A stretch of DNA of 64,000 nucleotides from Shinella zoogloeoides (GTDB lineage: Bacteria; Pseudomonadota; Alphaproteobacteria; Rhizobiales; Rhizobiaceae): the NCBI RefSeq assembly GCF_022682305.1, contig NZ_CP093529.1:358313-422312 (forward strand). Direction: 5' to 3'. A program made the position numbers and the translations under genes. Under the pieces are notes generated by a model that ran no database searches, was not told the DNA's origin, and was given only the letters and a program-made list of their open reading frames with translations. Within the stretch, counting starts at the first letter, position 1; every line of letters starts with the position of its first letter. Below are positions 14,729 to 55,176 of the stretch, piece after piece.

Positions 14729-14972
14729 GGCATCCTCCGTGGCATTGCGATACGCTAAAAGGTCTGCGGGCGGGTTTCAGGGCCGCCCTGCCCTCTGAAA
14801 ATCACCGGGCTTCTATCACGGCGGCCCGCCCGCCGGAAGTTCGACGTGCCCGCTGGTACGGCGGATGACGGCCATTCGGCTTGCAATCGGCGTTTCGATC
14901 AACGAGGCTGCGGGCCTGCCGGACGCTTTCGGGCGGAAGGCGCTGAACGACAGCATCGAAGCAGGAGCCGGC

Positions 14973-29864: not shown

Positions 29865-30062
29865 CGATTGCTCGCAATTCCCGCGGTCCGGAACACGTTT
29901 TTCCGGTGAATGTCACACTTTGGGACGCACGGGCTTCCTACGGGCGGAGGAAGGCGGGATACGGCCGGCGCTTAAGCAAAGATTCACGTCGCTGTGGTTT
30001 GGTCGTTCCGGATAGGCTTAGAATGCAAGGACCGGGCGCGCCTCGCCTGCAAAGAGAGCGAA

Positions 30063-33924: not shown

Positions 33925-33966
33925 GGTCTGGTCCTCGTGCAAATCCGGTATTCCGCGTTTCCGTGG

Positions 33967-34938: not shown

Positions 34939-34985
34939 AGTGATATGCCTCCCGAGGCAGATAGGGGCGCAAGAAAACGAGGTGT

Positions 34986-35009
34986 TTGCGCCGATTCTAA
35001 TAGGCGCAA
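34986..35009. promoter_or_regulatory. Inverted repeat upstream of the epimerase
   Basis: TTGCGCC (34986-34992) and GGCGCAA (35003-35009), 10-nt spacer, in the 285-nt divergent gap between epimerase and hydrolase genes. The same gap carries TCTTAAGGATAT at 35146-35157. Otherwise the gap has no gene. Confidence 0.35.
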
Positions 35010-35223
35010 CATCTGGATAATTGTTTAAGCCGCCGCCCGAAATCCGAACGGTCCGACCTTTCCCGCTCGAAATAGGGCGCCTTGAAGGCAAAGAAGCGCG
35101 CGCTTATCCGCTCAATTGGGCGAAAAATGGTGAGAAATTCAGGTTTCTTAAGGATATTCGGGTTTTCTGTGGACTGATGGAAAGTCTCGCCGAGCGGTAT
35201 CTCCCGGCAGGAAAGGTTCGATA

Positions 35224-37012: not shown

Positions 37013-38149
37013 CTACTCAGCCGCGACGGGCGGATAGGGGCGTTCGGCTTCCTCACGGGCATCGACCTTGAGGCCGAGCAGAAGGGCTAGCTTGCGGGCG
37101 GCGCGATCCCAGGTGAAGGCCGCGGCGTGCGTGCGGCCGCGCGCCCGCATCTGCGCGGAGAAGCCTGCATCGTCCGCAAGCGCGCGGATCTGATCGACCC
37201 ATTCGTCTGGATCGTGCGCGGCTGCCGTGAGGGCGGCATCGCCGCACACCTCGGGCAAGGCGCCGCATGGCGCGACGATGGCGGGGCAGCCGAGGATCAT
37301 CGCCTCGAGCGGAGGAAGGCCGAAGCCCTCGGTCGTCGACGGGCATGCAAAGGCGCAGGCCCCGGCGATCAGCCCGGTTAGCTGTGCATCGTTGATACGG
37401 CCGGCGAAGTGGATATTCGCAGGCACCGTCATGCCGAGCCGTTCGAAATCCTCTCGCTTTGCTGCGCCGAAGAGCACGAGCGTCATGTCGGCAAGGCGGG
37501 GGTCCGAAAATGCCTTCAGCAGGACCGCGATGTTCTTGTGCGCCTGGGTATTGGCGAGGGCGAGAACGTATCTGCCCTTCTTCAGCCCGCTTGCGGCGAC
37601 GAAGGTGCTGTCGGGCTCATGCGCGAGGACATGGTCGCACCCGTTGTGGATGACATCGATCCTGTCCGCCGTCGCAACGCCGAACCGGACGAGCTGCTGC
37701 CGGGAGAATTCCGAGACCGTCAGGATTCGCCGGCTCGTTTTTCCGATGAGGGGCAGGAGAAAGCGATACCAGAGGCGGAAACCGCGCGAATAGGAATCCG
37801 GCGTCAGGTAGACCTGCGCGTCATGGATCATTGTGATCGCATCCGCATGGAAGACCGGCCCCAGATTGCACAGGCTGATAAGCCGGCCCTTGCGGGCGGA
37901 CCAGGGCAAGGCGAAGTGCGCCCAGGGAATGTTCTTGGCGATGCCGCTGAGAAAAGGCGTGTGAACCACCCGCGTGCGTGTAAGCGAGGCCGCTTTCGCT
38001 TCAGTTGCGGGGGTGAGGATGATCGTCTCCGGTGCATCCGGCTGCGTGGCCAGCAGCCGGTCCGTAGCCTGGATGAGTTCTTCCGCAACGCGGTGCACGC
38101 CCGTCGGGGCGGCGGTGAGGAACCTGCCGTTGAAATAGAGCGGTTTCAT
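37013..38149 (-). CDS. Glycosyltransferase family 4
   Basis: 378 residues, GT-B fold. It starts MKPLYFNGRFLTAAPTGVHRVAEEL, typical of the mannosyltransferase-like GT4 group. The donor-binding half shows ILTVSEFSRQQLVRFGV, VIHNGCDHV and the signature CPSTTEGFGLPPLEAMILGCPAIV with the EX7E pair. It uses a nucleotide sugar to extend the repeat unit. Its ATG overlaps the stop of the upstream GT4 gene by 4 nt, so the two transferases are translated together. Confidence 0.9.
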   Translation of the reverse strand: MKPLYFNGRFLTAAPTGVHRVAEELIQATDRLLATQPDAPETIILTPATEAKAASLTRTRVVHTPFLSGIAKNIPWAHFALPWSARKGRLISLCNLGPVFHADAITMIHDAQVYLTPDSYSRGFRLWYRFLLPLIGKTSRRILTVSEFSRQQLVRFGVATADRIDVIHNGCDHVLAHEPDSTFVAASGLKKGRYVLALANTQAHKNIAVLLKAFSDPRLADMTLVLFGAAKREDFERLGMTVPANIHFAGRINDAQLTGLIAGACAFACPSTTEGFGLPPLEAMILGCPAIVAPCGALPEVCGDAALTAAAHDPDEWVDQIRALADDAGFSAQMRARGRTHAAAFTWDRAARKLALLLGLKVDAREEAERPYPPVAAE

Positions 38150-39261
38150 GCCGTGAGCCTCATGCTTTCCGTCATGCCGGAGAAACCGGGCAGGTTGCCC
38201 AGGAACCGTCGCAGTTCTCTTTCGAAGCGCCGCGGTTCGAATTTGAGCGCGTGGGCGCGGATTTCCGTGGGCGAGAGGAGGTTTGTGGTCTTCTCGAAGC
38301 GGGTGATGACGGCCATCAGGGATTCGGGGGTCTGCTCATGGAAGAACAGGCCCGTCTTGCCGTCCACAACGGTTTCGAGCACCCCGCCCCGCCCGAAGGC
38401 GATCACCGGCCGGCCGCTCGCCATTACCTCGAGCGGGACGATGCCGAAGTCCTCGACGCCCGGATAGAGCAGCGCCTTGCAGTTGGAGAAGTGGGTTTCC
38501 ATCTCGGCGTTGGAAACGCCGCCGAGGAACTGCACGGTCGGGCCGGCGGATTGCTTCAGCTTGGCGGAAGCGCCGTCGCCGATGACGACCAGCGGCAGGT
38601 TCAGGCGCGTGCAGGCCGTAACGGCCAGTTCGATCTTCTTGTAGGGCGTGATCTGGCCGGCGCACAGATAGTAGTCCTTCGGCCCGTCGGTGATGGTGAA
38701 GCGGCTGACCTCGACGGGCGGATGGATGACCGCTGCATCGCGCCGGTAGAATTTCTCGATACGCTTTGCGACATAGCCCGAATTGGCGATGAAATGGTCG
38801 ACGCGGTGCGAGGTGGTGACGTCCCACTGGCGCAGCCTGGGCGCGGCGAAGGCCAGGATCATGCGTGCAAGGAAGCCGGCCTCGGCGAGATACTGGGGAT
38901 AGAGGTCCCAGATATAGCGCATGGGGGAATGGCAATAGCAGACATGCAGCGCATCGGGCCGTGTGATGACACCCTTGGCGGGACCCGCCTCGCTGGAAAT
39001 GACGAGGTCGTAGCCGGTCAGGTCGAGGGATTCCAGCGCATGGGGCATGAGCGGCAGCATCTTCTGGTAATGCTTGCGCCCGCCGATCTTCTGCAGGAAG
39101 GAAGTGGTGAGCTTGTGGCGCCGGAGCTTCGGGGAAAGCTTTTCCGGATCTGCCACGAGGGTGAAGATATCGGCATCGGGGAAGATGTCGCAGAAGGTCT
39201 CGAGGACCTTTTCGCCACCGCGCATTCCGACAAGCCAATAATGGACCAGGGCAACCTTCAC
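38146..39261 (-). CDS. Glycosyltransferase family 4 (GTG start)
   Basis: 371 residues. It starts VKVALVHYWLVGMRGGEKVLE, a typical GT4 N-terminus with the glycine-rich donor loop; later motifs are ANSGYVAKRIEKFY, VIHPPVEVSRF and YPGVEDFGIVPLEVMASGRPVIAFGRGG. The start is GTG at 39261, with GGGAG 7 nt upstream. A much longer open frame upstream runs antisense-frame over the Wzc-like gene and is a shadow. It overlaps the following GT4 by 4 nt. The 241-nt gap before it (39262-39502) shows no gene. Confidence 0.88.
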   Translation of the reverse strand: MKVALVHYWLVGMRGGEKVLETFCDIFPDADIFTLVADPEKLSPKLRRHKLTTSFLQKIGGRKHYQKMLPLMPHALESLDLTGYDLVISSEAGPAKGVITRPDALHVCYCHSPMRYIWDLYPQYLAEAGFLARMILAFAAPRLRQWDVTTSHRVDHFIANSGYVAKRIEKFYRRDAAVIHPPVEVSRFTITDGPKDYYLCAGQITPYKKIELAVTACTRLNLPLVVIGDGASAKLKQSAGPTVQFLGGVSNAEMETHFSNCKALLYPGVEDFGIVPLEVMASGRPVIAFGRGGVLETVVDGKTGLFFHEQTPESLMAVITRFEKTTNLLSPTEIRAHALKFEPRRFERELRRFLGNLPGFSGMTESMRLTA

Positions 39262-39502
39262 CGCGAACTCCCGGGAATTGTATATTTCTGCTGATCGGGG
39301 GATACGCCAACATTGTCGAGAAACAGTGAAGACGATTGTTCGCATTCGACTCAAAGGCCGTCTTCCCGGTCTTTCTTGACCGAAACCGGGAAAAACCGGG
39401 CTGCCAAACACAAACAGGCTTAACGGTTTACTATCGGGGAAGGCCGGAATGCCGGGTTGCAGGCCCGGTTTGAGGCAGCTCTTCCCGGGGCTTAGCGACC
39501 TA

Positions 39503-41674
39503 TCAGCTTGCCCGCGAGACGCTGCCTTCCTCGTCGTCGATGAACACAGGTGCAACCGGCGAGAGACCGCGTTGCCGGAGAGAGGCCACGGCGCCCTCGG
39601 TTCCCTTGCGGTTGAACCGGCTCGCGATGACCGCGAAGCGATCCGCGGCCGCCTCCACTGCGGCGATGGGCTTCGGCTGATCGAAGCGGCCTGCATAGAC
39701 GATGACGAGATCGAAGGCATAGCCCTCCGCATCCAGCCAGTCGGGCAAGGTGCCGGCATCGGGGCCGCGGCGTGTCGAGACGCGCGGCGACCGCCGGCCT
39801 GCGGGCAGAAGCCACGGGCCGCGCGCCCTGGAAAGATTGATGAGGTCTCCTTCCAGCCGTTGCAGCGAAATCGAATCGTGCAGGCCCGGCAGGCCGGTGG
39901 CCGAGGCCTGCCGCGTGAGGCCGGCTTCGGCTTCCGCGTCGACCAGCAGAACCGCCTTGCCGGTGCGGGCGATGGTGCGCGCGAGGTGAAGGGCGGCCCG
40001 CGCCGTGCTGGCGTTCGGCTGCGTGGAATAGAGTACGACGGAGTAGTTCGTCTGCCCGTACGCTTCCTGAAGGAGGTCCTGCGCGATATCGGCGTAGCCG
40101 CCGTGGAACGCGGCTGGCTCCGCCACGGAACGAAGGCCCCGTGAGGGGGCATTATTTGCAGCGAACCGCCGGGCTGGTTCATCGTGCCGGGCCTGTTCGG
40201 GTGCCGGGTCTCCCTGCTTCTTGCGTTTGCCGCGCCGCAGCCATCCGAAGAGCCGTGCCGGGAGGCCCTCGCCGGCCGGCTTTGCCCGGCTGGGGGCGGC
40301 GTCTTCCGCAAGGCCCCTCGCCTGGGGCTTGCGATCCCAGGCAAGCGCGATGCCGCAGCCGAACAGCATGCCGAGCATCGTCGCACCCGCGATGATCAGC
40401 GAGCGCTTGGGGCCTGCCTTGCCGAGCGGGACCTGCGCGGCGGAGATGATCTGCGGGTTTTCACTCGTGGTGCGCTCCTGGCCGGAAAGCTGGCGCGTGC
40501 GCAGCAGGAAGGATTCGTAGACGGCCCGGTCGCTGGCCAGCTTGCGCTCCAGTTCCCGCAAGCGGACCATCGACTGGTCGTTCTCGTTGAGGCCCGCCTT
40601 GAGCGTTGTGAGGTTCTGACGAAGCAGTTCGCGCTGGCTCTTCAGCTTGTCGCCGTTGCGGGAAAGCGACGTGGTGAAATCCTTCAACTGCGTGTCGAGC
40701 AGCTTGGAGGCCGCGCGGGTCCTTGCCATGGCGTTGAGAAGGGAGGGATGGCGATCGCCGAAGGACGACCGCAGGACGGATTCCTGTTCCTGGGCGGCGT
40801 GGTAGCGCGTGCGTAGCTCGATGATTGCCGGTGTCAGGGAGCTGTCCGGGGTCGAGCGCAAGTAGTCCGGGTTGGAGCGGGCGAGCGCGAGTTCGGAGAT
40901 CAGCGCCTCGTTCTCCGCGATGCTGGCGGAGATGCGGGTGATTTCCGTGTTGGTGTCGGCGATCTGCTGCTCGGCGGTCGGCCGGCCGCCGACATCGACG
41001 AGATTGTTCTCGGCCTTGTAGGCCTGGATCGCGCGGTCGCCGTCCTCTACCGCCTTCTCGAGACTCGCCAGCTGCGCGGAGAGGTCCGTGGTCGCCTGCC
41101 GAACGACGCTGTTGTTCATTTCAACGCGGGTGTCGATATAGGTCTGCGCGATGGCGTTGGCGATGCGCGCGGCCTTCTGCGGGTCGAAGGACGTGACGGA
41201 GAGGTTGATGACGAAGCTGGACTTGGTGAGTTCGGCGCGGATCGCGCCCTGCAGGACGGCAAGTGCGCGTTGGGCGCGCTGGTCGGCATCCGGCTCGTAG
41301 GGCTGCCCGGCGCCGAAATCCGGATCGTCGGCAAGCCCGAGCGACTTCACCACCGAGGAGAGGACCTTCACGGAGGTCAGAATATATTGCTGGTTGAGTG
41401 CGCGGGCGTCCGTCGCTCCGCCTTTGTCGAGAAGGTCGCCCTCCACAACCCGCGAGCCTTCGGGGTCGACCAGGATGCTGACGGTCGAGACATAGTAGTT
41501 GCGCATGAACTGCGACAGGAACACGGCCGCACCGCAGAACAGGATCGTGATGGCCACGATCATGATGAAACGGTTACGTAGCACCGAAAAGACATGGCCG
41601 AAGTCGATCAGGGGGACGGCGCCGGCATCCTGCGCGTCCTCATGTTCGGCATAGGGGGTGATAGTATCGACCAT
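39503..41674 (-). CDS. Wzc/ExoP-like chain-length protein with degenerate kinase domain
   Basis: 723 residues. N-terminal Wzz domain with TM1 at about 36-56, a long periplasmic coiled-coil region (190-390), TM2 at about 425-447, then a cytosolic domain placed as in Wzc/ExoP tyrosine autokinases. The P-loop position reads STQPNASTA (550-558), lacking the Gly-Lys-Ser/Thr of Walker A, though VLLVDA (575-580) and DLVIVYAG (655-662) keep the Walker A' and B strands. The C-terminus has no tyrosine cluster. It probably sets polymer length and export as a scaffold without kinase activity. Confidence 0.85.
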   Translation of the reverse strand: MVDTITPYAEHEDAQDAGAVPLIDFGHVFSVLRNRFIMIVAITILFCGAAVFLSQFMRNYYVSTVSILVDPEGSRVVEGDLLDKGGATDARALNQQYILTSVKVLSSVVKSLGLADDPDFGAGQPYEPDADQRAQRALAVLQGAIRAELTKSSFVINLSVTSFDPQKAARIANAIAQTYIDTRVEMNNSVVRQATTDLSAQLASLEKAVEDGDRAIQAYKAENNLVDVGGRPTAEQQIADTNTEITRISASIAENEALISELALARSNPDYLRSTPDSSLTPAIIELRTRYHAAQEQESVLRSSFGDRHPSLLNAMARTRAASKLLDTQLKDFTTSLSRNGDKLKSQRELLRQNLTTLKAGLNENDQSMVRLRELERKLASDRAVYESFLLRTRQLSGQERTTSENPQIISAAQVPLGKAGPKRSLIIAGATMLGMLFGCGIALAWDRKPQARGLAEDAAPSRAKPAGEGLPARLFGWLRRGKRKKQGDPAPEQARHDEPARRFAANNAPSRGLRSVAEPAAFHGGYADIAQDLLQEAYGQTNYSVVLYSTQPNASTARAALHLARTIARTGKAVLLVDAEAEAGLTRQASATGLPGLHDSISLQRLEGDLINLSRARGPWLLPAGRRSPRVSTRRGPDAGTLPDWLDAEGYAFDLVIVYAGRFDQPKPIAAVEAAADRFAVIASRFNRKGTEGAVASLRQRGLSPVAPVFIDDEEGSVSRAS

Positions 41675-41950: not shown

Positions 41951-43060
41951 ATGTCGAGTGTACGTTCATTGGAAGCCGGAGATATAGAGGCCGTCGCGGA
42001 CCTCTTCCAGCGCTTGCTCCGCAAGAGCGGAAAGCCGGCGGGCAATGACCTGAAAACCTATCTCGGAACGGTCTTCCTCGACGGTGCGGCGCAAGACGGC
42101 AAGCTTCATTCCAAGGTCCATGTGCGTGAGGATGGCACAGTGTCCGGCTTTCTCGGCGTGCTGCCCATGGAGATGGAGTTCGAGGGACGCCGCCTGCTGG
42201 CCGCCAATTGCGGAACATTCGTCAGTGACGACCGGGGCACGGATCCCTTTACCGGCGCGCGCCTGCTGCGCGAGGTCCTGTCGGGACCGCAGGACCTTTC
42301 CTTCAGCGAAACCTCGAACGATGTCTCCACCGACATGTGGCGGACGGCGCGGGCCACGGTTCTTGCGCCCTACAGCCTCGAATGGCTGCGCATCCTCAAG
42401 CCCGCGGCCTTCGTGCTGGAGACCGTCGCCTCGCGCTTTTCGCCGGTAAGGCTCGCCCGGCCCGTCGCCCGCCTTGCCGATGCCGTCGTCGCGCGCGGCG
42501 GGGACAAGCAGGCCTGGTCCCATTATACACCCCTTGCCGGCAAGGCGGATGCCTTCGTCGATGCGCCGGCGACGGATGAGGATTCCGTTGAGGCCTGCCG
42601 GCAACTCGTGCGCCGGTTTGCGCTGCGCCCCTCCTGGGAGCGGCCGGTGCTGGAGGAGATGTTGCGGCACGCGGCGCGCAAGGCGCTGCACGGCGCGCGG
42701 GTCCAGCATGTGGTGAAGAACCGCGCGGGCAAGGTGGCCGGCTTCTATCTCTATTACGGCGATGCCGGCGGGATCGGCCGCGTGGTGCAGATCATGGCCG
42801 AACAGGGCATGGAGGCGATCGTCATCGACTGCCTGCTGCGCAATGCCCATGAGCGGGGCCTTGTGGCGATCCGCGGCCGCACGCAGCCGGCCCTGCTGCA
42901 GGCGATGATCGGCAAGAAATGCGCGTTCCTGCACGCATCCTCCACGGTCGTCCATTCCCGCGACCCCGCCCTCCTCGAAGCGATGACGAGCGGCCGCGTA
43001 TTCCTCAACGGCCTTGCCGGCGAGGGCTGGACCCGCCTCATCGGCGACCGGTTCGAGTAA
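41951..43060 (+). CDS. GNAT-like acyltransferase, first gene of the amidotransferase operon
   Basis: 369 residues. The N-terminal part (VRSLEAGDIEAVADLFQRLL, GTVSGFLGVLPMEMEF) has the GNAT acetyltransferase pattern, and a second GNAT-like repeat is suggested by NRAGKVAGFYLYYGDAGG near 255. No signal peptide or membrane segment. It could acylate an amino sugar or an ACP-linked intermediate. ATG at 41951 is used; a GTG 3 nt earlier is possible. The stop is 5 nt before asnB, so it opens a five-gene operon running to the terminator at 47798. Confidence 0.7.
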   Translation: MSSVRSLEAGDIEAVADLFQRLLRKSGKPAGNDLKTYLGTVFLDGAAQDGKLHSKVHVREDGTVSGFLGVLPMEMEFEGRRLLAANCGTFVSDDRGTDPFTGARLLREVLSGPQDLSFSETSNDVSTDMWRTARATVLAPYSLEWLRILKPAAFVLETVASRFSPVRLARPVARLADAVVARGGDKQAWSHYTPLAGKADAFVDAPATDEDSVEACRQLVRRFALRPSWERPVLEEMLRHAARKALHGARVQHVVKNRAGKVAGFYLYYGDAGGIGRVVQIMAEQGMEAIVIDCLLRNAHERGLVAIRGRTQPALLQAMIGKKCAFLHASSTVVHSRDPALLEAMTSGRVFLNGLAGEGWTRLIGDRFE

Positions 43061-43065
43061 CGGCC

Positions 43066-45021
43066 ATGTGTGGAATCGCCGGATATCACGGAAAGCTCAT
43101 GGCGCCGGAAGCGGCCGCCGATCGCCTCGGCCGCATGGTGGCCGCGCTTCGGCATCGCGGGCCGGATGGCGAGGGCATAGCGGTGCGCGGCGAGACGGGG
43201 CTTGCCCATACCCGCCTTTCCATCGTCGGCCTCACCGACGGCGCGCAGCCGATGATGAGCGAGGACGGCGCGCTCGCGGTCTCCTTCAACGGCGAGATCT
43301 TCAACTATGTCGAACTGCGCGACGACCTGAAGGCGCGGGGCCACCGCTTCCGCACGCATTCGGACACGGAGGTGCTGCTGGCTTCCTACGCCGCGAAGGG
43401 GCTGGACTGCCTTGCCGATTTCAACGGCGACTTCGCCTTCGCCCTGCACGATACCGCCAACCGGACGCTCGTGCTTGCCCGCGACCGCATGGGCGTGCGA
43501 CCGCTCTTCTATGCGGAACATGACGGCGCGCTGTTCTTCGCCTCGGAGATCGGGGCGCTGCTTGCCCTGCCCGGCATGGCGGCGGAGATCGATCCGGTGG
43601 CGCTCGACCAGATCTTCACCCTCTGGTGCCCCATTCCGCCGCGCACCGCCTATCGCGGCATTCACGAGCTTCCGCCCGGCCACATGATGATCGTGCGCGA
43701 TGGCCAGCGCACGATCCGCCCCTGGTGGCAGCTCAGCTATCCCGACCGCGCCGACATCCGCCCCGCCCCGCGTGTCGAGGTACAGGCCGAGGAACTGCGC
43801 GCGCTCATCACCGACGCGACCCGCATTCGCCTGCGCGCCGACGTTCCTGTCGGTTCCTACCTTTCCGGCGGCCTCGACTCCTCGTTCATCGCGGCGCTGG
43901 CCGCGCGGACGGTGACGCGGGGGCTGCGTACATTCTCGCTCACCTTCCGCAGCGCCGAGCACGATGAAGGCCATTGGCAGCGCCAGATGGCCGCCACGCT
44001 CGACGCCGAGGCGGACAGCGTCGAATGCTCGACGCAGGCGATCGCCGCGCATATGCCGGAGGCGATGCGGCATATCGGCTGCCCCATCCTGCGCACTGCT
44101 CCCGTTCCGCTCCATCTTCTGTCCGCGCGGGTGCGGGAGCGGGGCATGAAGGTCGTGCTGACGGGCGAAGGCGCGGACGAGGTCTTCGCCGGCTACGATA
44201 TCTTCCGGGAGGCGCGCGTGCGCCGCTTCTGCGGGCGGCAGCCTGCGTCCCCCCGGCGGCCGCGGCTTTTCCAGCGGCTCTATCCTTACCTGCCCGGCCT
44301 CAAGCAGCAGTCGCCGGAATATCTCGCACGCTTCTTCTCCTTCGGTTCCGAGGCGCTGGACGATCCGCTCTATTCCCATCGCCCGCGCTTCCGCTCCACG
44401 GCGGCGGCCAAGCTGTTCTTTTCCGCCGGCCTCAAGGACGCGCTCGGCGACTATGACGCCGCCGCCGAGCTTGTCGAACGGTTGCCGGCCGATTTTTCCC
44501 GCTGGCATCCACTGCACCAGGCGCAATATCTCGAAACGGCCTTCCTGCTGCCGGGCTATCTTCTGTCCAGCCAGGGTGACCGGGTGATGATGGCGAATGC
44601 GGTGGAGGGACGTTTTCCCTTCCTCGACCACCGGGTCGTTTCCTTCGCCGCAGGCCTCTCGCCGGATGCCAAGCTGTCGGGGCTGAAGGAAAAGCACATC
44701 CTCAAGGAGGCTGCGCGGGGTATCGTGCCGGCAGCCATCATCGACCGCGCCAAACAGCCCTACCGTGCGCCGGATGCGGAAGCCTTCGCCGCTCCGGCAA
44801 GCCCAGCCTATCTCGAAACGGTGCTCTCCCCGGAGCGGCTTGCGATGAGCGGCCTCTTCAACGTCCAGGCCGTGGGCAAGCTGAAGGAGAAGGCGCTGAA
44901 GGGACAGGCGACCGGCTTCCGCGACAATGCGGCCTTCATCGGCATCCTGTCGACGGAGCTGCTTGCCCGCACCGGGACAACACAATCGACACAACCCGCA
45001 TTGCACATTGGGACATGCTGA
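43066..45021 (+). CDS. Asparagine-synthase-like glutamine amidotransferase
   Basis: 651 residues. MCGIAGYHG puts the Ntn nucleophile Cys at position 2, with RHRGPDGEG and SFNGEIFNYVELR completing the class II glutaminase. The C-terminal synthetase half has the PP-loop SYLSGGLDSSFIAAL and TGEGADEVFAGYD. It transfers glutamine nitrogen onto an adenylated carboxylate. Placed in a polysaccharide locus beside ACP and acyl ligase, it resembles the amidotransferase 1 of exosortase-A clusters more than a housekeeping asnB. It overlaps the ACP reading region by the stop. Confidence 0.88.
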   Translation: MCGIAGYHGKLMAPEAAADRLGRMVAALRHRGPDGEGIAVRGETGLAHTRLSIVGLTDGAQPMMSEDGALAVSFNGEIFNYVELRDDLKARGHRFRTHSDTEVLLASYAAKGLDCLADFNGDFAFALHDTANRTLVLARDRMGVRPLFYAEHDGALFFASEIGALLALPGMAAEIDPVALDQIFTLWCPIPPRTAYRGIHELPPGHMMIVRDGQRTIRPWWQLSYPDRADIRPAPRVEVQAEELRALITDATRIRLRADVPVGSYLSGGLDSSFIAALAARTVTRGLRTFSLTFRSAEHDEGHWQRQMAATLDAEADSVECSTQAIAAHMPEAMRHIGCPILRTAPVPLHLLSARVRERGMKVVLTGEGADEVFAGYDIFREARVRRFCGRQPASPRRPRLFQRLYPYLPGLKQQSPEYLARFFSFGSEALDDPLYSHRPRFRSTAAAKLFFSAGLKDALGDYDAAAELVERLPADFSRWHPLHQAQYLETAFLLPGYLLSSQGDRVMMANAVEGRFPFLDHRVVSFAAGLSPDAKLSGLKEKHILKEAARGIVPAAIIDRAKQPYRAPDAEAFAAPASPAYLETVLSPERLAMSGLFNVQAVGKLKEKALKGQATGFRDNAAFIGILSTELLARTGTTQSTQPALHIGTC

Positions 45022-45023
45022 CC

Positions 45024-45278
45024 ATGACAGACGAAACCAGATCCGCCATCCGCGCCTTCATCGTGGAGAACTTCCTATTCGGCGACGAAAGCCATCCGCT
45101 TCCCGCCGACCAGTCGCTGATCGACAACGATCTCGTCGACTCCACTGGCATCCTAGAGCTTGTCGGCTTCATCGAGGAGCGCTTCGCCGTCTCGATCGCC
45201 GACGCGGATATCGTGCCCGCCAATCTCGACTCGATCGACCGCATCGCCGGCTTCATCGCGCGCAAGCAGGCGGCCTGA
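45024..45278 (+). CDS. Acyl carrier protein
   Basis: 84 residues from the second ATG (an ATG at 45015 would add three residues and overlap asnB by 7 nt; GGGA lies 10 nt upstream of 45024). The four-helix ACP pattern holds the phosphopantetheine Ser in DLVDSTGILELVGFIEE, with Ser in the D-S context at residue 40. It would carry an activated acyl group as a thioester. Its position between the amidotransferase and the AMP ligase implies that the ligase loads it. This is not fatty-acid AcpP, which lies in fab clusters. Confidence 0.88.
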   Translation: MTDETRSAIRAFIVENFLFGDESHPLPADQSLIDNDLVDSTGILELVGFIEERFAVSIADADIVPANLDSIDRIAGFIARKQAA

Positions 45279-45292
45279 AGGACGCGGTGACC

Positions 45293-46810
45293 ATGCGGAT
45301 CGAGCAGTATCTTCGCGACAGCACCGCCCGCGACGGCGCCCATGAGGCGATTGTCGCGGGTGACGTGCGGCTGAGCTACGACCGCTTCCTCGATCTTTCG
45401 GCCCGCATGGCGACGACGCTGCGCGCAAGGGGCGTCGCGCCGGGCGACCGCGTGCTCATTTTGCTGGAAAATGGCTGGCAGGCCGCCGTCACGGTCTTTG
45501 CCACATGGATGGCCGGGAGCGTCATCTGCTTCGTCAACCCGTCGACCAAGGCCGCCCGGCTTGCGCAGATCGTGCGCGATTGCGGCCCGGCGCTGGTGGT
45601 TGCCGAGGGCCGGCTCGAAAAACTCGTCGATGGCGTTGCCGAGCTTGCCGAAACGCCGCGTCTAGTGACGGGCGCAAGCTTCGAGGCAGGGCTGGAAGCG
45701 GAGCCTTTCGCCGGTGAGACCTTGCCTGACAGCGACCTTGCCGCGCTGATCTACACATCCGGCTCGACCGGTGATCCGAAGGGCGTGATGCTCGCCCACG
45801 AGAACATGGATGCGGCCGCCCGGTCGATTGCGTGCTATCTGGAAAACGCTGCAACCGACCGTATCCTCGTCGTCTTGCCCATGTCCTTCGGCTACGGGCT
45901 GAACCAGCTCGTGACCGCCATGTTGACCGGCGCTACCCTTGTCATCGAGAAGTCCTTCGCCTTTCCGCAGGCGATCTTCGAGAGGATCCGCGATGAGCGC
46001 GTCACCGGTTTCCCACTGGTGCCGGCCATGGTGGCCATGATGATGCAGGCCCGCGACCTCGATCCCGCCTTGTTTGCCAGCCTGCGCTACATCACCAGCG
46101 CCGCCGCTCCGCTGCCGCTTGCCCATCTCGACCGGCTGCGCGCCTTCCTGCCCCATGTCCGCCCCTATGTGATGTACGGCCAGACCGAGTGCACCCGCAT
46201 TGCCTACCTGCCGCCGGAGGAGATCGATGCCCGGCGCGGATCGGTCGGCATCGCCATTCCGGGCGTTCGCACCGAAGTGGTGGACGAGGCCGGCCTGCCG
46301 GTGCCACCGGGCACGGTCGGAGAGCTGGTGGTCCGCGGGCCGAACGTGATGCGTGGCTACTGGCGGAACGAGGCCGCGACCCGCAGGGCGTTGAGGCCCG
46401 ATCCGCGCGACGGCACACTGCGCCTCCACACCGGCGATCTCTTCACCGCGGATGCGGATGGTTATCTCACCTTCGTTTCGCGCACCGACGACATTATCAA
46501 GCCGCGCGGCGAGAAGGTCGCGCCGAAGGCGGTCGAGGACGTGCTGCACCGCATGCCGGGCATTGCCGAGGCGCTCGTCGTCGGCGTTCCGCACGATATT
46601 CTCGGGCAGGCCGTCAAGGCCGTTGTGGTCGCCGCCTCCGGCGCCGTGCTGACCGAGCGGGAAGTCATGCGCTTCTGCGCGCAACACCTTGAGGATCATA
46701 TGGTCCCGAAGGTCGTCGAATTCCGGGATGCCCTTCCCAAAACCGAATCCGGCAAGGCCAGCCGCAGGCTGGCGGCCGAACCCGCCCCCACGACAGGATC
46801 GAACGCATGA
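45293..46810 (+). CDS. AMP-dependent acyl ligase (ANL superfamily)
   Basis: 505 residues. The adenylate-forming motifs are all present: IYTSGSTGDPKGVMLAHEN (A3), YGQTECTR (A5), LHTGDLF (A7), RTDDIIKPRGEKVAPKAVED (A8) and the C-terminal catalytic Lys in ALPKTESGKASRR (A10). It activates a carboxylic acid with ATP and would pass it to the neighbouring ACP or CoA. Start ATG at 45293; an in-frame GTG at 45287 is closer to AAGGA and cannot be excluded. Its stop overlaps the nadE-like start in ATGA. Confidence 0.9.
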   Translation: MRIEQYLRDSTARDGAHEAIVAGDVRLSYDRFLDLSARMATTLRARGVAPGDRVLILLENGWQAAVTVFATWMAGSVICFVNPSTKAARLAQIVRDCGPALVVAEGRLEKLVDGVAELAETPRLVTGASFEAGLEAEPFAGETLPDSDLAALIYTSGSTGDPKGVMLAHENMDAAARSIACYLENAATDRILVVLPMSFGYGLNQLVTAMLTGATLVIEKSFAFPQAIFERIRDERVTGFPLVPAMVAMMMQARDLDPALFASLRYITSAAAPLPLAHLDRLRAFLPHVRPYVMYGQTECTRIAYLPPEEIDARRGSVGIAIPGVRTEVVDEAGLPVPPGTVGELVVRGPNVMRGYWRNEAATRRALRPDPRDGTLRLHTGDLFTADADGYLTFVSRTDDIIKPRGEKVAPKAVEDVLHRMPGIAEALVVGVPHDILGQAVKAVVVAASGAVLTEREVMRFCAQHLEDHMVPKVVEFRDALPKTESGKASRRLAAEPAPTTGSNA

Positions 46811-47787
46811 CCGCACAGACGACCCATACGCCCTCCTTCGCCCCGCTCGCGCTCGATCCGGCCGCCGAGGTTGAGCGCATCACCGCCTGGATGCGCGAGA
46901 AGCTGCGCGTGGACCTGCGCAAGCGCGGCCTGGTGCTCGGCCTTTCCGGCGGCATCGATTCCAGTCTTTCGGCGGCGTTGGCGGTGCGGGCGCTCGGCGC
47001 GAAGAACGTCTTCGCCCTCTACATGCCGGAAAACGATTCCGATCCGGAAAGCCTGCGCCTCGGGCGCAGCGTGGCCGAGACCTTCGGCATCGACAGCGTC
47101 GTGGAGGATATCGGCCCGTCGCTGGCGGCGCAGGGGTGCTATGAGCGGCGCGACGCCTTCATCCGTGAGGCCGTGCCGGAATATACGACCGGCTGGGCCT
47201 CGAAGATCGTCTTCGAGAATTCCATGACGACCGGGGGCTATAACATATCCTCACTGGTCGTCCGTTCGCCGGACGGCGAGATGCGCAAGGTACGCCTGCC
47301 GGCCAGCGCCTATCTCGGCATCGTCGCGGCGACGAACATGAAGCAGCGCACCCGCAAGCAGCTCGAATACTACCATGCCGACCGGCTGAACTTCGCCGTG
47401 ATCGGCACACCGAACCGGCTGGAATACGACCAGGGCTTCTTCGTGAAGAACGGCGACGGCGCGGCCGATATCAAGCCCATCGCCCATCTCTATAAGTCGC
47501 AGGTCTACCAGCTTGCCGCCTATCTCGGCGTGCCTTCGGAAATCCTCTCGCGCCCGCCGACCACGGATACCTATTCGCTGCCGCAGACGCAGGAGGAATT
47601 CTACTTCGCCCTGCCCTACGGCAAGATGGATATCTGCCTCTACGGCCTGGAAAACGCCCTGCCGGCGAAAACCGTTGCCGAGGCGACGGGTCTCAAGGAG
47701 AGCGATGTGGAACTGGTCTGGGCGGATATCGCTGCCAAGCGCAAGGTCGCGCGCTACCTGCATGCCCAGCCGCTCACCATGATCTGA
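46807..47787 (+). CDS. nadE: NadE-family NAD synthase-like amide ligase
   Basis: 326 residues of the NadE/ATP-pyrophosphatase family. SGGIDS at 47-52 is the PP-loop, followed by VFALYMPENDSDP, TNMKQRTRK, GTPNRLEYDQGFFVKNGDGAADIKPIAHLYKSQVY and SRPPTTDTYSLPQTQEEFYF, all NadE hallmarks. It has no nitrilase glutaminase domain, so it would use free ammonia or nitrogen from a partner. Its 4-nt overlap with the acyl ligase places it inside the polysaccharide operon, so it may amidate something other than nicotinate adenine dinucleotide. Housekeeping NAD synthesis remains possible. Confidence 0.85.
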   Translation: MTAQTTHTPSFAPLALDPAAEVERITAWMREKLRVDLRKRGLVLGLSGGIDSSLSAALAVRALGAKNVFALYMPENDSDPESLRLGRSVAETFGIDSVVEDIGPSLAAQGCYERRDAFIREAVPEYTTGWASKIVFENSMTTGGYNISSLVVRSPDGEMRKVRLPASAYLGIVAATNMKQRTRKQLEYYHADRLNFAVIGTPNRLEYDQGFFVKNGDGAADIKPIAHLYKSQVYQLAAYLGVPSEILSRPPTTDTYSLPQTQEEFYFALPYGKMDICLYGLENALPAKTVAEATGLKESDVELVWADIAAKRKVARYLHAQPLTMI

Positions 47788-47797
47788 AAACGAAAAG

Positions 47798-47830
47798 GCC
47801 GGGGCTGCTTGCGCAACCCCGGCTCTTTTT
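47798..47830. terminator. Rho-independent terminator, probably bidirectional
   Basis: GCCGGGG (47798-47804) pairs with CCCCGGC (47817-47823), 12-nt loop, followed by TCTTTTT. On the other strand the stem is followed by CTTTTCGTTTT. It closes the GNAT-to-nadE operon, and the converging RidA gene ends 15 nt away. Confidence 0.88.
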
Positions 47831-49371: not shown

Positions 49372-50304
49372 TCATGTCCATGCGTAGCGCACGATATGGA
49401 AGAAGACAGGCGCGGCGAAGACAAGGCTGTCCGCCCGGTCCAGCATGCCCCCATGGCCTTCGATGAGATGGCCCCAATCCTTCACGCCGCGGTCGCGCTT
49501 GATGGCGGAGGCGACGAGGCCGCCGAAGAAGCCCATGATGCAGGCAAGCCCGGCGAGCGTCCCCGCCTCCAGCGGCGAGAAGGGCGTCAGCCAGTAGAGG
49601 CCCGCCCCCATCAGCGAGGCACTGGCAATGCCGCCGATCAGCCCTTCCCAGGTTTTCGAGGGCGAGATGTTCGGTGCGACCTTGCGGCGGCCGAAAAGCT
49701 TGCCAAAGATATATTGCAGCACATCGCTGCCCTGTACGGTGGCGATGAGGAAGGCGATCAGCAGAAGGCCCCTGCCCTCGTTGCCAGGAATGGGCAGCGT
49801 CACCAGTGCGGGCACATGGCTGATGCAGTAGACGGAGAGCATGAGACCCCATTGCTGCTCGCTGACCCGTTCGAGGAAGCGGGACGTATCGCCCCGCAGC
49901 GCCGTCAGTGCCGGCATGGCGAGGAAGCAGTAGACGGGGATGAAGATCGAATAGAGGCCATACCAGTCGATCCAGATCAGGTAATATTGAACGGGGATGA
50001 CGACGAGGAACATGCCGAGCAGCGTCCAGCGGTCGGCATGGCGCGTGTTGGTGAGCGTGACGTATTCCCGAAGTGCGGCGAAGGAGACGAAGGCGAAGAG
50101 CAGGATCACCCCACCCTTGCCGAAGAGGAAGGCGAGGCTGATGCCCGCCACCATGATCCACCATGCCTTGATGCGGGCATTGAGATTTTCCAGCGTCGAC
50201 GGCAGCGGCTGGGGGCTGCGCCAGGTGAGGACACCGGCGACGGCGCTTGCCGTCGTGAGTACGGCGACGAGGCCCAGGAAGAGACGTGTCGTATCGTCGC
50301 TCAT
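49372..50304 (-). CDS. ynbB: CdsA-like phosphatidate cytidylyltransferase (YnbB type)
   Basis: 310 residues, about eight membrane helices. The CTP-transferase signature is split as SPSKTWEGLIGG and SAIKRDRGVKDWGHLIEGHGGMLDRADS. It makes CDP-diacylglycerol from phosphatidate and CTP in the inner membrane. It closes a run of five overlapping genes that also encode YnbC- and YnbD-like proteins, and a YnbA-like gene is divergent. Thus it is the YnbB-type paralogue rather than the essential cdsA. In E. coli YnbB has been linked to synthesis of the glycolipid MPIase. Its ATG overlaps the acyltransferase stop by 4 nt. Confidence 0.87.
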   Translation of the reverse strand: MSDDTTRLFLGLVAVLTTASAVAGVLTWRSPQPLPSTLENLNARIKAWWIMVAGISLAFLFGKGGVILLFAFVSFAALREYVTLTNTRHADRWTLLGMFLVVIPVQYYLIWIDWYGLYSIFIPVYCFLAMPALTALRGDTSRFLERVSEQQWGLMLSVYCISHVPALVTLPIPGNEGRGLLLIAFLIATVQGSDVLQYIFGKLFGRRKVAPNISPSKTWEGLIGGIASASLMGAGLYWLTPFSPLEAGTLAGLACIMGFFGGLVASAIKRDRGVKDWGHLIEGHGGMLDRADSLVFAAPVFFHIVRYAWT

Positions 50305-50954
50305 CGGCGGGTTCCATCCTTTTCAGGGGCAAGCGAGAGAAGCGCATGGCGGGCGCGGTCGAGGAAGACCTTGCGGTCCTCGCCCTCCCCCAGTGCCACC
50401 GGAGCGCCGAAGACGACGCGGCAGAGCAGCGGCACAGGCAGTACCGCGCCCTTGGGCAGCACGCGGGACATGTTCTCGATCCAGCAGGGCACCAGTTCCA
50501 CATCCGGCCGGGCAAAAGCGAGATTGTAGAGGCCGGAACGGAACCGCAGCAGCGGCTCCTCCGTCATGTTGCGCGTACCTTCGGGGAAGAAGATGAGGGA
50601 TTCTCCCGCATCGAGGGCGGCCAGCATCACTTGTAGCGGATCGGCCGTGCGCTCCACCCAGTTGCGCTCGACGAGCACCGTGCGCAGCAGTCTGCCGGCG
50701 ATGAAGCGGCGCGCCGGGCCGGCGTTCCAGTAGTCCGAGCCGGCAACAGCCGCCGTGCGGCTGCGCTCGGCGGGGCGCAGGCAGGTCGAGACCAGGATGA
50801 AATCGCCGTGGCTGGCATGGTTGGCGAAATAGATACGCTGCCGTCCGCTCGGCGCAACGCCCGCCCAAATTGGCCGGACGCCCGTGACGGCGCGCGAAAG
50901 GCCGGCAAGTGCGGCACCGGATGCCCGTTGCAGAAGGGAGGCCTTGGCCATCAT
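50301..50954 (-). CDS. PlsC-type 1-acylglycerol-3-phosphate acyltransferase
   Basis: 217 residues. The HX4D catalytic motif is NHASHGD, and FFPEGTRN is the phosphate-binding block III; both are diagnostic of PlsC-like enzymes. It would acylate lysophosphatidic acid or a similar glycerolipid at the membrane face. It starts with ATGATG overlapping the preceding stop and ends overlapping ynbB, so it is embedded in the ynb operon. E. coli ynbABCD has no such gene, so this is an extension of the module. A longer frame upstream is a shadow. Confidence 0.85.
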   Translation of the reverse strand: MMAKASLLQRASGAALAGLSRAVTGVRPIWAGVAPSGRQRIYFANHASHGDFILVSTCLRPAERSRTAAVAGSDYWNAGPARRFIAGRLLRTVLVERNWVERTADPLQVMLAALDAGESLIFFPEGTRNMTEEPLLRFRSGLYNLAFARPDVELVPCWIENMSRVLPKGAVLPVPLLCRVVFGAPVALGEGEDRKVFLDRARHALLSLAPEKDGTRR

Positions 50955-51388
50955 GCGCCGCCTCCGTCCATCCCGTCGAGCAACAGGATGGCATAGAGTA
51001 GCAGGGCGATGGCCAGCGTTGCCCGCTGGAGCCAGATCAGCCTTCCGCAGCCGGCAAGCCGTTCGATCAGTGAGGCCGTTACACCGTCCTTCTTGCGCAG
51101 CCCCATGCGGGCGAGAACGTCGTCTATTGCGGCGAGGCCCGCTTCTTCGTCCTGATGGGAAGCCGAAAGCCGGAACAGGGCGGCATCGAAGAGAAGATGG
51201 GCGGACAATGCGAGCGGCAGAAGGCAGAAGGCGAGCAGAAGCCACCAGGCGAGCGGTCCCGTGAAGCCATAGGCCCCGGCCGTCGGCGGCGCGACGGCGA
51301 GGATCAGCAAGGCGACCGCCCCGCCGACGAAACCGTTGCGTCGCAGGCGGCGGGCCGCGTTGAGCATCGATCCGTTTGCATCCTTCAT
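50951..51388 (-). CDS. Small membrane protein of the ynb-like operon
   Basis: 145 residues with hydrophobic helices at about 21-40 (FVGGAVALLILAVAPPTAGA), about 44-66 and a C-terminal one (ATLAIALLLYAILLLDGMD), and a soluble middle containing SASHQDEEAGLAAIDDVLARMGLRKKDG. I do not recognise the family. The start ATG overlaps the ynbD-like stop by 4 nt (ATGA), with AGAGG upstream, and its stop overlaps the acyltransferase start, so it is translated as part of the operon. Role in phospholipid metabolism is inferred only from context. Confidence 0.75.
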   Translation of the reverse strand: MKDANGSMLNAARRLRRNGFVGGAVALLILAVAPPTAGAYGFTGPLAWWLLLAFCLLPLALSAHLLFDAALFRLSASHQDEEAGLAAIDDVLARMGLRKKDGVTASLIERLAGCGRLIWLQRATLAIALLLYAILLLDGMDGGGA

Positions 51389-52719
51389 CTTGCGGCCTCT
51401 TCGATGACCGCATACGCCTCGAAGGGCAGATGCACGGGGCGGCCGGCAGCCTTGATCTGCGCCACAGCGGTGACGGCGTTGGTGGCGGTTCCCGTCCGCA
51501 GCAAGGTGCAGGCCGCAACCACGGCGCTGCGCTGGAAGCCAAGTGCGCAGCAGATGAGGACGGGGCCGCGCCTCTGCGCTGCCTCGACGGCAAGCGCGGC
51601 TTCGCGAATGCGGGCGGCAGGCATGGAAAGGAGATCGAGCGAGGGGAAGGCATGCCAGGCAAGGCCCGGCACGGCCATGCCCGGCAGCTCGGCCGTCATG
51701 TCGATCACGGCGACATAGGGGGAGAGCGCCTCGCGCGTCGGGAAGCGCCCGAGAAAGATACCGTCCGCGATCTCCGTTGCGGCCGGCAGCCGGCGCGTCC
51801 ACCACAGCAGGTTCACCCAAGCGCCAAGACGATAGGGCAGGAGCAGCCAGCGGCTCGCCAGACTGATGTGGCCATTTCCCTCCTTCTGGAAGACGGTCGC
51901 CCCGGCGCCGGAATAACCGGCCGCGACGATTGCAAAGGCAAGCGCCGGCCAGAGAAGCATCAGTCCTGCCCCCGAATTGCGCGTCTGCCAGACGGTCAGG
52001 GCGATGAAGGCGACTGAGCTGGCAGCATAACAGATCGCCAGCCGCCGGGCCTTGGGATGTTCGGTAAGGCGGAAGCCCGCGAGTGGCGAGGTTTTTCCCG
52101 CCGGGAACAGCCAGAGGGCGAAGAGACCGAGAAGTGCGCCCGTCGGAATGTCGATGGCATGGTGCTGCCATGTCGTCAGCACCGAAAGGCCGATCAGCAG
52201 GCTCCAGATATGCCAGAAGATCAGCCACGCTCCGCGCAGCCGGTCCCGCCAATGATCCCAGATGATGACGAGCAGCGCGATATGCAGCGACGGGGCCTGG
52301 TTGAACGGCTTGTCGAAGCCGCCGAGCACATCGAACATGAAGCCCGGCAGCCCATCGGTTTCAGGGCGCACGAAGATCGCCTGAAGCGGAAGGGCGAGGA
52401 AGCAGGCGACGGCGATGACTTGCGCCGTGAGATAGCGCCGCGCCAGCCGTCCGACCTCCGCAGGCGTGTAGTTGACGAAGAGGGAGAGCGCGTAGAAAGC
52501 GTTGATCGACCAGTAGGGAACGATCGTCCAGGCGATGAAGGGGATATGTTGTTCCCAGCCGAAGGCGAGATTCGGCACGCCTGCCCGCAGCGAGGCCAGC
52601 CAGTTCGCCGTGCCGTAGGTCAGGTAGAAGAACGGCGCGAGGAACGCGAGCCAGAGCGCTGCCGCCCGAAGGACGGTGCGACGCTCGGTGGCGACAGAAG
52701 GTGAAATCCCCTCCCCCAT
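51385..52719 (-). CDS. ynbD: PAP2/dual-specificity phosphatase fusion (YnbD type)
   Basis: 444 residues. An N-terminal multi-pass PAP2-like lipid phosphatase (PSLHIALLVI with the catalytic His, HHAIDIPTG) is joined to a C-terminal dual-specificity phosphatase domain. The CX5R loop is CALGFQR (Cys391 to Arg397), but the residue before the catalytic Cys is Cys390 rather than the usual His. This domain order is that of E. coli YnbD. It probably dephosphorylates a lipid phosphate in the periplasm. It lies 6 nt after the ynbC-like gene and overlaps the next gene. Confidence 0.87.
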   Translation of the reverse strand: MGEGISPSVATERRTVLRAAALWLAFLAPFFYLTYGTANWLASLRAGVPNLAFGWEQHIPFIAWTIVPYWSINAFYALSLFVNYTPAEVGRLARRYLTAQVIAVACFLALPLQAIFVRPETDGLPGFMFDVLGGFDKPFNQAPSLHIALLVIIWDHWRDRLRGAWLIFWHIWSLLIGLSVLTTWQHHAIDIPTGALLGLFALWLFPAGKTSPLAGFRLTEHPKARRLAICYAASSVAFIALTVWQTRNSGAGLMLLWPALAFAIVAAGYSGAGATVFQKEGNGHISLASRWLLLPYRLGAWVNLLWWTRRLPAATEIADGIFLGRFPTREALSPYVAVIDMTAELPGMAVPGLAWHAFPSLDLLSMPAARIREAALAVEAAQRRGPVLICCALGFQRSAVVAACTLLRTGTATNAVTAVAQIKAAGRPVHLPFEAYAVIEEAAR

Positions 52720-52725
52720 GCGCCG

Positions 52726-54462: not shown

Positions 54463-54579
54463 GCCACCATTCCTTCGCTGTGAGATCATCACCTATACGG
54501 ATGAGCCCGCAGGTTTGCAGTTGATTTCATTGCGTTGCGTCTGCATTTGTTGAAGGCAATCGAGCGGATTCGAGCTTTC

Positions 54580-55176
54580 ATGTCGATCTATAAACTGAAA
54601 TCGTCTTTCCAGAACCTCCTTCGCCCGATGGTCGGGCGGCTGGCGGCCATGGGCCTCACGGCCAATCAGGTGACGCTCGTCGCCGCCATCGTTTCGATTG
54701 CGATCGGGGGGCTGCTTGTCGTCCAGCCCGAGCCGGCGCTCTTCGCGCTTGTGCCGGTGTGGATGTTCCTGCGCATGGCCTTCAATGCCGTCGATGGCAT
54801 GCTGGCGCGCGAGCATGGGCAGAAGAGCGCGCTCGGCGGCTATCTCAACGAGATTGCGGACGTCGTGTCCGACGCGGCGCTCTACGTGCCTTTCGCGCTG
54901 GTTGCGCCGTTTTCTCTGCCCTGGCTGATGGCGATCGTCTTCCTTGCGACATTGACCGAATTCGCCGGCGTTCTCGGCGCGGTCCACGGTAATGGCCGCA
55001 ATTACGAAGGCCCGATGGGCAAGAGCGACCGGGCGCTGCTTTTCGGCGCGCTCGGCGCGCTCGTTGCGGGCTTCGGCACGCTGCCGGCCTGGACATGGCA
55101 TATCCAGCCGATGGCCTGCGTCCTTCTCGCCTGGACGGTGGTGAACCGGGTGCGCAGCGGCCTCGCAGAAGGCTGA
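54580..55176 (+). CDS. ynbA: CDP-alcohol phosphatidyltransferase (YnbA type)
   Basis: 198 residues, about five helices. The CDP-OH-P signature is present as DGMLAREHGQKSALGGYLNEIADVVSD, but the first Asp of the consensus is Asn and the third is in a LNE context; as I recall this NAVDG...LNE...DVxSD form is typical of YnbA, not PgsA or PssA. SDRALLFG near 155 also matches. It would condense CDP-diacylglycerol with an unidentified alcohol. ATG at 54580 is used although its ribosome site is weak; a TTG at 54535 is in frame. Divergent from the ynbC-like gene, 117 nt apart. Confidence 0.85.
   Translation: MSIYKLKSSFQNLLRPMVGRLAAMGLTANQVTLVAAIVSIAIGGLLVVQPEPALFALVPVWMFLRMAFNAVDGMLAREHGQKSALGGYLNEIADVVSDAALYVPFALVAPFSLPWLMAIVFLATLTEFAGVLGAVHGNGRNYEGPMGKSDRALLFGALGALVAGFGTLPAWTWHIQPMACVLLAWTVVNRVRSGLAEG

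Follow-up and report, generated by a model that had tools for sequence, protein, structure and literature searches.

A conserved five-gene operon in Shinella zoogloeoides

The DNA analysed here, referred to as the window, is a 64,000 nt stretch of Shinella zoogloeoides contig NZ_CP093529.1, and positions refer to it unless a locus (L) or genome (G) label is given. Direct reading of its open reading frames (ORFs) reveals at 41951-47787 a run of five genes on the forward strand encoding a tandem-GNAT acyltransferase-like protein, an AsnB-type amidotransferase, an acyl carrier protein (ACP), an AMP-forming ligase and a NadE-like enzyme (Table 1). The last four form a core inherited as a set in lineages ranging from Rhizobiales to a gammaproteobacterium, and we tentatively read the operon as a tailoring module for a surface polysaccharide. 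An initial annotation, made from the sequence alone, had described five tightly packed genes with gaps or overlaps of at most 14 nt and a closing terminator. Both points hold, as the successive spacings are +5, -7 (or +2), +14 and -4 nt, none exceeding 14 nt, and the last gene is followed by a palindromic stem with a T run at either side, which the terminator scan scored on the minus strand only. The alternative ACP start at 45024 agrees with that annotated in S. zoogloeoides ATCC 19623.

Searches with Pfam and NCBIfam profiles confirmed the identities of the AsnB, ligase and NadE-like proteins; the first protein matched no family in either collection. Because the structure predicted for it is a tandem GNAT, the first gene had rightly been called a GNAT by fold, and in structure comparison this model resembles N-myristoyltransferase and Eis acyltransferases. 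The AsnB protein passes the asparagine synthase model TIGR01536 (480.7 bits, cut-off 267.1), and both its Cys2 and its GEGADE motif are found in 62/62 aligned relatives. The ACP has only a weak PP-binding match (13.7 bits, cut-off 20.8), with the serine of its DSTG motif kept in all 62 relatives. The best match of the ligase among solved structures is an adenylation domain of a nonribosomal peptide synthetase (NRPS).

The core genes are inherited together

When 22 aligned GNAT sequences were used to scan named genomes, 43 loci were found, of which 42 are labelled as Rhizobiales genera or metagenome-assembled genomes and one is a short contig labelled Methylococcaceae. By tblastn the GNAT, AsnB, ACP and ligase genes lie in the same order at 43/43 loci and NadE joins them at 42/43, the contig of L042 ending before NadE; at L039 the NadE gene is cut and at L029 it lies in two pieces. 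Since the same order recurs at 42 of the 43 named loci, the five-gene set is conserved beyond chance, and the initial annotation, which had named a lack of conserved co-occurrence as grounds for refuting its reading, is upheld here. No flanking gene outside the operon is generally conserved among 45 clustered loci, the widest family of flanking ORFs (which reads like an ABC-transporter ATPase) occurring at 18 and the next at 7.

An even sampling of the GTDB family (151 genomes) gave 28 genomes with the NadE-like protein over its cut-off and 30 with GNAT relatives. Both occur in 26 (Fisher p 8.6e-23), where they share a contig and are never more than 17.1 kb apart. NadE-like genes without a GNAT occur in G054 and G106, and the genomes with a GNAT relative and no NadE-like gene (G017, G119, G120, G149) all carry a divergent GNAT of a polysaccharide cluster. 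In a sample of 398 genomes of the phylum, with a threshold of E 1e-60 or better, the NadE-like protein occurs in 15 genomes. Thirteen of those (the window's genome, G000, and G054 included) carry the four core genes as a cluster, in an order that varies across lineages. In G047 asnB lies on a separate contig from the rest, within a polysaccharide cluster, and in G340 ligase/NadE and GNAT/asnB pieces were seen and the ACP was not.

The distance matrices of the four core proteins are concordant, with Mantel r values of 0.735-0.910 that were equalled in 0/500 permutations; this set comprised the 62 of 63 chosen loci that had all four proteins, L039, L042 and certain other retrieved loci having been excluded beforehand. 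As the four genes are kept together, their distances agree and their catalytic residues are kept, we argue that they function jointly.

Two of the named loci show peculiarities of their own. The NadE-like match of L029 (Nitratireductor aquibiodomus) is split from about 14057, a possible frameshift or assembly error, and the contig labelled Methylococcaceae (L017) carries a Rhizobiales-like five-gene operon, 56-74% identical, and is possibly mis-binned. Among the GNAT relatives, that of NZ_CP084753.1 (Roseateles sp. XES5) is Shinella-like, as are the NadE and hydrolase of this record (76, 92 and 63% identical for GNAT, NadE and hydrolase, respectively); the organism name may be wrong. A further candidate member of the module is an S-adenosylmethionine (SAM) methyltransferase, whose gene adjoins the GNAT gene or lies close to asnB in many relatives outside Shinella.

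The counterpart in Sinorhizobium meliloti

On pSymB of S. meliloti the four core genes stand together in the same order (asnB, ACP SMb20651, ligase SMb20650, nadE; 62, 57, 55 and 74% identical, respectively), an order seen directly at L047, and with all four orthologous genes together we regard the window's core as an operon of the S. meliloti type. Ramos-Vega 2009 is said to have placed the asparagine synthetase and NadE genes in this operon as well, and to our knowledge the four-gene operon is on record without an assigned function. The numbers SMb20650 and SMb20651 are presumed for the L047 genes from the text of PMC7232532 and from the operon reportedly described by Ramos-Vega 2009.

Passages of PMC7232532 report that SMb20650 is cotranscribed with the ACP gene SMb20651, gives acylated SMb20651 in Escherichia coli and is unable to take the place of FadD, while an excerpt of PMC5686131 states that the function of SMb20651 needs further investigation. 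The portions of the literature covered by our search contained no description of the five-gene module. The initial annotation had missed both the earlier work on the S. meliloti counterpart and the place of the NadE-like gene in the core, which is equal to that of the other genes.

An additional NadE paralogue

The NadE-like protein passes NF002048, a model named NAD(+) synthase (NAD, nicotinamide adenine dinucleotide), with 501.9 bits against a cut-off of 313. Its predicted model (mean predicted local distance difference test score 85.5) keeps the NadE fold, with template modelling scores, by target length, of 0.82 to NadE 2e18 and 0.83 to the nicotinamide mononucleotide (NMN) synthetase 3fiu. 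It shares with NadE, the NH3-dependent NAD synthetase, and with the Francisella NMN synthetase both the fold and the ATP-binding motif, the P-loop Ser-Gly-Gly and Asp being kept in 62/62 relatives. It differs from them in its genomic partners, in coexisting with other NadE matches and in an insertion of about 50 residues (71 residues opposite 18 when aligned to 2e18).

The NadE model was matched in 150/151 family genomes, and in all 28 module genomes two or more matches were found in addition to the module copy, with a frame of 558-674 aa in at least 22 of them; the window's own genome (G000:C1) has a separate NadE frame of 621 aa. The NadE-like protein is thus an additional paralogue, since module genomes carry other NadE matches, and a role as the only source of NAD is ruled out by those longer frames. 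It may be an enzyme of NAD-making type that has been reused for another job, in which case the label 'NAD(+) synthase' may mislead for those NadE-like proteins that sit in such modules. Proteins of this type go by that label and are numerous: when relatives of the Alkalilimnicola copy were sought, 8000/8000 scored candidates matched at E 1e-3, and the 120 matches listed were 61-100% identical. A nicotinate phosphoribosyltransferase gene lies in the window at 14865-16277, 31 kb from the NadE-like gene, with no sign of joint action.

A rival account of the operon is housekeeping, in which asparagine synthase, fatty acyl ligase plus ACP and a second NAD synthetase have nothing but the operon in common. 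The cut-offs passed by AsnB and by the NadE-like protein, the intact NadE motifs and the occurrence of NF002048 over its cut-off in 1/14 control genomes are in its favour. The surplus of NadE matches in every module genome speaks against it, as do the failure of the S. meliloti ligase to replace FadD and the cohesion of the four genes, which stay together through changes of order and with concordant distances, and we consider it very improbable.

Distant resemblance to exosortase-A loci

The initial annotation had likened the operon to the amidotransferase, ACP, ligase and hydrolase set of exosortase-A clusters, while seeing no exosortase, PEP-CTERM protein or decarboxylase. The absence of an exosortase holds for the whole genome, in which TIGR02602 was unmatched; no search was aimed at PEP-CTERM proteins or the exosortase-A decarboxylase. 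Exosortase was found in 3/151 family genomes and in 1 of the 28 with the module (G065), and in a wider set in 1/12 module genomes, where it lies 3.2 Mb from the module.

The module and true exosortase-A/PEP-CTERM loci (TIGR03108, TIGR03098, TIGR03100, TIGR03101) share the same enzyme classes, and the ligase and the hydrolase of the window best match these models. None of the proteins passes, however. The window's AsnB scores 409.6 bits with TIGR03108 (cut-off 816.9), its ligase 404 with TIGR03098 (592.35), and the two halves of a fused hydrolase from the adjoining polysaccharide cluster 54.3 with TIGR03101 (N half, 202.75) and 74.3 with TIGR03100 (C half, 168.45). Across lineages, seven module AsnB proteins score 359-443 bits, all below the cut-off, and TIGR03108 is the second-best model for 7/7; six module ligases score 335-484 bits, again all below, and TIGR03098 is the best NCBIfam model for five and the second for that of L103.

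TIGR03108 is over its cut-off in 61 of the 398 phylum genomes. We compared the loci of 20 of these over about 9 kb on either side (L151, at 10 kb, and L152, at 13 kb, were shorter and cover less than 9 kb on one side). Their AsnB proteins are 29-37% identical to the window's, a NadE-like gene is present at 0/20 and a ligase-like gene at 1/20 (L137, 27%, on the opposite strand); no ACP was found by tblastn, which easily misses an ACP. Membership of the exosortase-A system is therefore rejected on the sub-threshold AsnB, ligase and hydrolase scores and on the missing NadE-like gene. The module would at most work like a part of that system, and judged by sequence the resemblance is distant, so that the likeness of the ligase and AsnB drawn by the initial annotation survives and the assignment to the set does not. 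At one of the true loci (L149) a pair of AsnB genes is separated by 6 kb, which brings to mind the two asparagine synthetase genes that a passage of PMC9012009 reports for Zoogloea.

A historical variant of this connection would make the module a relic or satellite of an exosortase-A system, a sugar-modifying set that once served the anchor of sorted proteins and outlived the loss of both exosortase and PEP-CTERM proteins. The ranking of TIGR03098 and TIGR03108 among models is consistent with this, as is the module of Alkalilimnicola sp. S0819 (G427), which lies between genes that pass TIGR03013, TIGR03006 and, by a small margin (279.8 with a cut-off of 278.85), TIGR03007 in a genome in which no exosortase was found. 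These three models represent exosortase-A-type polysaccharide genes, and TIGR03015 and TIGR03016 were matched below cut-off in the same cluster. The low identity of AsnB, the absence of NadE-like genes and the near absence of ligase-like genes at the true loci point the other way, and the 67 genomes with a TIGR03108 match at E 1e-200 include none of the 15 module genomes of the phylum sample, although this is not significant (about 2.3 expected). We regard a relic as improbable.

Linkage to polysaccharide gene clusters

Upstream of the module and divergent from it lies a Wzx/Wzy-type polysaccharide cluster (Table 1). S. zoogloeoides ATCC 19623 and UPHL-collab-1 have the same cluster with the operon, complete on a 372-kb plasmid in the former (NZ_CP086611.1, L153); in the latter the GumC gene and the acyltransferase were not found within the stretch read. 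In S. medicae and S. meliloti the asnB-ACP-ligase-nadE genes lie about 9-17 kb from a cluster with GumC, O-antigen ligase, deacetylase and GT4 genes. Relatives of the window's GNAT reside in this cluster, on the same plasmid in S. meliloti and as two genes (44% and 28%) in S. medicae, in contrast to Shinella, where the GNAT gene is part of the operon. In S. meliloti the second GNAT relative (L047, about 31386-32600) matches in two pieces and is unannotated, and may be broken in this strain.

Over the family sample a polysaccharide cluster is linked in 9/28 module genomes, the window's included. G138, G045, G071, G028 and G127 have a Sinorhizobium-type ligase gene within 16 kb, G063 has a window-like cluster around the operon, and in G047 and G140 (L062 and L085) asnB lies inside the polysaccharide cluster. 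Outside the class, 4/4 module genomes of the phylum sample, Alkalilimnicola among them, have polysaccharide genes near the module.

The alpha/beta hydrolase that the initial annotation had included in the set fits less well. At a cut of about E 1e-40, beyond which the next matches are 1e-10 or weaker, it is full-length in 29/151 family genomes and overlaps with the NadE-like gene in only 10 (p 0.018), as against 26/28 for GNAT, and the weak overlap led us to reject it as a member of the module. Because all four hydrolases on plasmid records that are more than 60% identical lie within 10 kb of a GNAT gene, and the family-wide overlap is weak, we assign it to one Shinella cluster type, that is, to the neighbouring polysaccharide cluster.

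The product could instead be a small molecule, a free N-acyl amino acid or fatty-acid amide acting as surfactant, signal or membrane lipid, with the polysaccharide genes incidental or serving the same biofilm. The isolation of the named five-gene loci, GNAT relatives on 103 plasmid records and the resemblance of the GNAT model to N-myristoyltransferase and Eis enzymes would suit such a pathway, and N-acyl amino acid synthase genes are described elsewhere near PEP-CTERM/polysaccharide genes (in a part of PMC7293339). It would leave unaccounted for the recurrence of polysaccharide linkage across unrelated lineages and cluster types and the move of asnB into the polysaccharide cluster in two genomes (L062, L085). 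No partner family recurs widely beside the five genes, and the GNAT matches no NCBIfam model and hence none for N-acyl amino acid synthases. On balance we think a small-molecule product unlikely. The stieleriacine-type loci of that paper do share with the module N-acylation from acyl-ACP near polysaccharide genes; an AsnB/NadE module is not named in the part concerned.

A proposed role in polysaccharide tailoring

Our preferred reading is that the operon is a self-contained acyl-ACP and amidation module that tailors a surface polysaccharide, to which we give a probability of slightly under one half (about 0.48). The ligase would activate a carboxylic acid with ATP and load it onto the dedicated ACP, as reported for the S. 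meliloti counterpart. The AsnB-type enzyme would use ammonia from glutamine to convert a carboxyl group to an amide, on either the ACP-bound acyl group or a sugar acid; a precedent for AsnB action on a thioester-bound acid is OxyD, which amidates malonyl units. The NadE-fold enzyme would make a second ATP-driven amide or an acyl-adenylate on a substrate other than deamido-NAD. Where present, the tandem-GNAT would, judging by fold and gene position, pass the acyl group from ACP to an amino group of a sugar or precursor, or another transferase would install the group on the sugar in its place. The product would then be built into a Wzx/Wzy-type polysaccharide, with neither an exosortase nor a sorted protein taking part. 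Of these steps, ACP charging alone has experimental backing, by analogy with a relative.

A comparable combination is found in the Wbp/Vim linking-sugar pathway of Porphyromonas gingivalis, where an AsnB-type enzyme (WbpS/PGN_1234) and a GNAT-type transferase (VimA) likewise act on a cell-surface sugar. According to excerpts of PMC7468200, PGN_1234 is needed for glucuronamide (a uronamide), the same sugar is presumed to receive an amino acid from VimA, and exosortase-A loci are speculated to make a similar sugar. This pathway differs in that the sugar is attached to secreted proteins and that the same excerpts name no ACP, ligase or NadE-like partner.

Several observations weigh against polysaccharide tailoring. 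In 16 of the 28 family module genomes there was no polysaccharide gene in the stretch examined (nine were judged through the matching named loci L022, L024, L027, L028, L031, L033, L035, L040 and L043; G059 and G096 are outside the count), and in G100 only weak transferase and hydrolase matches lie 6-10 kb away. At the 43 named five-gene loci no gene of the two query polysaccharide clusters was found within 10 kb, except for weak single matches at L007 and L009. GNAT relatives are absent from 8/14 module genomes searched, including all 4 outside the class, and the intact catalytic motifs of the NadE-like protein would permit NAD synthesis. Finally, the ligase position that we take to bind the amino group of a substrate is D in 17/62, G in 27/62 and T in 13/62 relatives, which bears on the substrate class; an amino acid may be the substrate given the NRPS-like best structure match, yet this position varies. 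The pathway sketched by the initial annotation, from acid activation through ACP loading and amidation to polysaccharide attachment, is borne out in part, by ligase-ACP acylation as described in passages on S. meliloti and by polysaccharide adjacency in several lineages; at many loci the module stands by itself.

The wider proposal, an exosortase-independent route across Proteobacteria for amidated acyl decoration via a dedicated ACP, with AsnB and a recruited NadE-fold enzyme acting on a substrate other than deamido-NAD, is possible but doubtful. Polysaccharide tailoring would provide a testable role for an operon whose function the literature leaves open, tying it to a surface polysaccharide and not to protein sorting, and suggests that part of exosortase-A polysaccharide chemistry works without an exosortase. 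According to part of PMC9012009, S. zoogloeoides ATCC 19623 is a floc-former (cellulose) in which transposon mutagenesis and complementation are in use.

Features of the window and its surroundings

Table 1 Features of the operon and the polysaccharide cluster (window positions; for the methyltransferase, locus positions)
Feature	Position	Strand	Basis
Tandem-GNAT acyltransferase-like protein, 369 aa	41951-43060	+	predicted fold; no Pfam/NCBIfam family
AsnB-type glutamine-dependent amidotransferase, 651 aa	43066-45021	+	TIGR01536, TIGR03108 scores
Acyl carrier protein, 87 aa (alternative start 45024)	45015-45278	+	weak PP-binding; DSTG serine
AMP-forming acyl ligase, probable acyl-ACP synthetase, 505 aa	45293-46810	+	best NCBIfam model TIGR03098
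NadE-fold enzyme without glutaminase domain (NF002048/PRK00876), 326 aa	46807-47787	+	NF002048 score, 2e18 alignment, predicted model
Palindromic terminator-like stem, 11 pairs	47798-47823		closes operon, and ridA on opposite strand
GumC/Wzc-type chain-length protein, divergent neighbour	39503-41674	-	Pfam Wzz, GNVR
GT4 glycosyltransferase, approximate start; C-terminal part of ORF 38146-40386	38146-39300	-	
GT4 glycosyltransferase	37013-38149	-	Pfam
Fused alpha/beta hydrolase (N half resembling exosortase-A hydrolase 2, C half hydrolase 1; both below cut-off)	35224-36996	+	TIGR03101, TIGR03100
SDR sugar epimerase/dehydratase	33967-35091	-	Pfam
GT2 glycosyltransferase	33028-33942	-	Pfam
Wzx-type flippase	31491-32966	+	Pfam Polysacc_synt_3
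Multi-span membrane protein, probable Wzy-type polymerase	29994-31490	+	no family; inferred from sequence
Cupin-domain protein of polysaccharide cluster	29284-29781	-	Pfam Cupin_3
Acyltransferase-3 membrane acyltransferase	28131-29264	-	Pfam Acyl_transf_3
SAM methyltransferase	L046 14219-14947; also L047, L059, L063, L064, L070, L071, L083		neighbour of GNAT/asnB

Beyond the polysaccharide cluster, a gene for an MprF-type lysyl-phosphatidylglycerol synthase is followed by one for an AcvB/VirJ-type protein (22863-26830), a pair found next to the cluster in S. zoogloeoides ATCC 19623 as well. At 13411-14421, 14 kb before the cluster, lies a transposase gene with HTH_38 and rve domains, which we take to be IS30-like. 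On the other side of the operon, 49372-55101 holds phospholipid-type genes encoding CdsA, an acyltransferase-like protein, a PAP2 phosphatase, a hydrolase-methyltransferase fusion and a CDP-alcohol transferase, of which CdsA and the fusion were identified in the window and the other names were taken from the homologous ATCC 19623 locus (L153).

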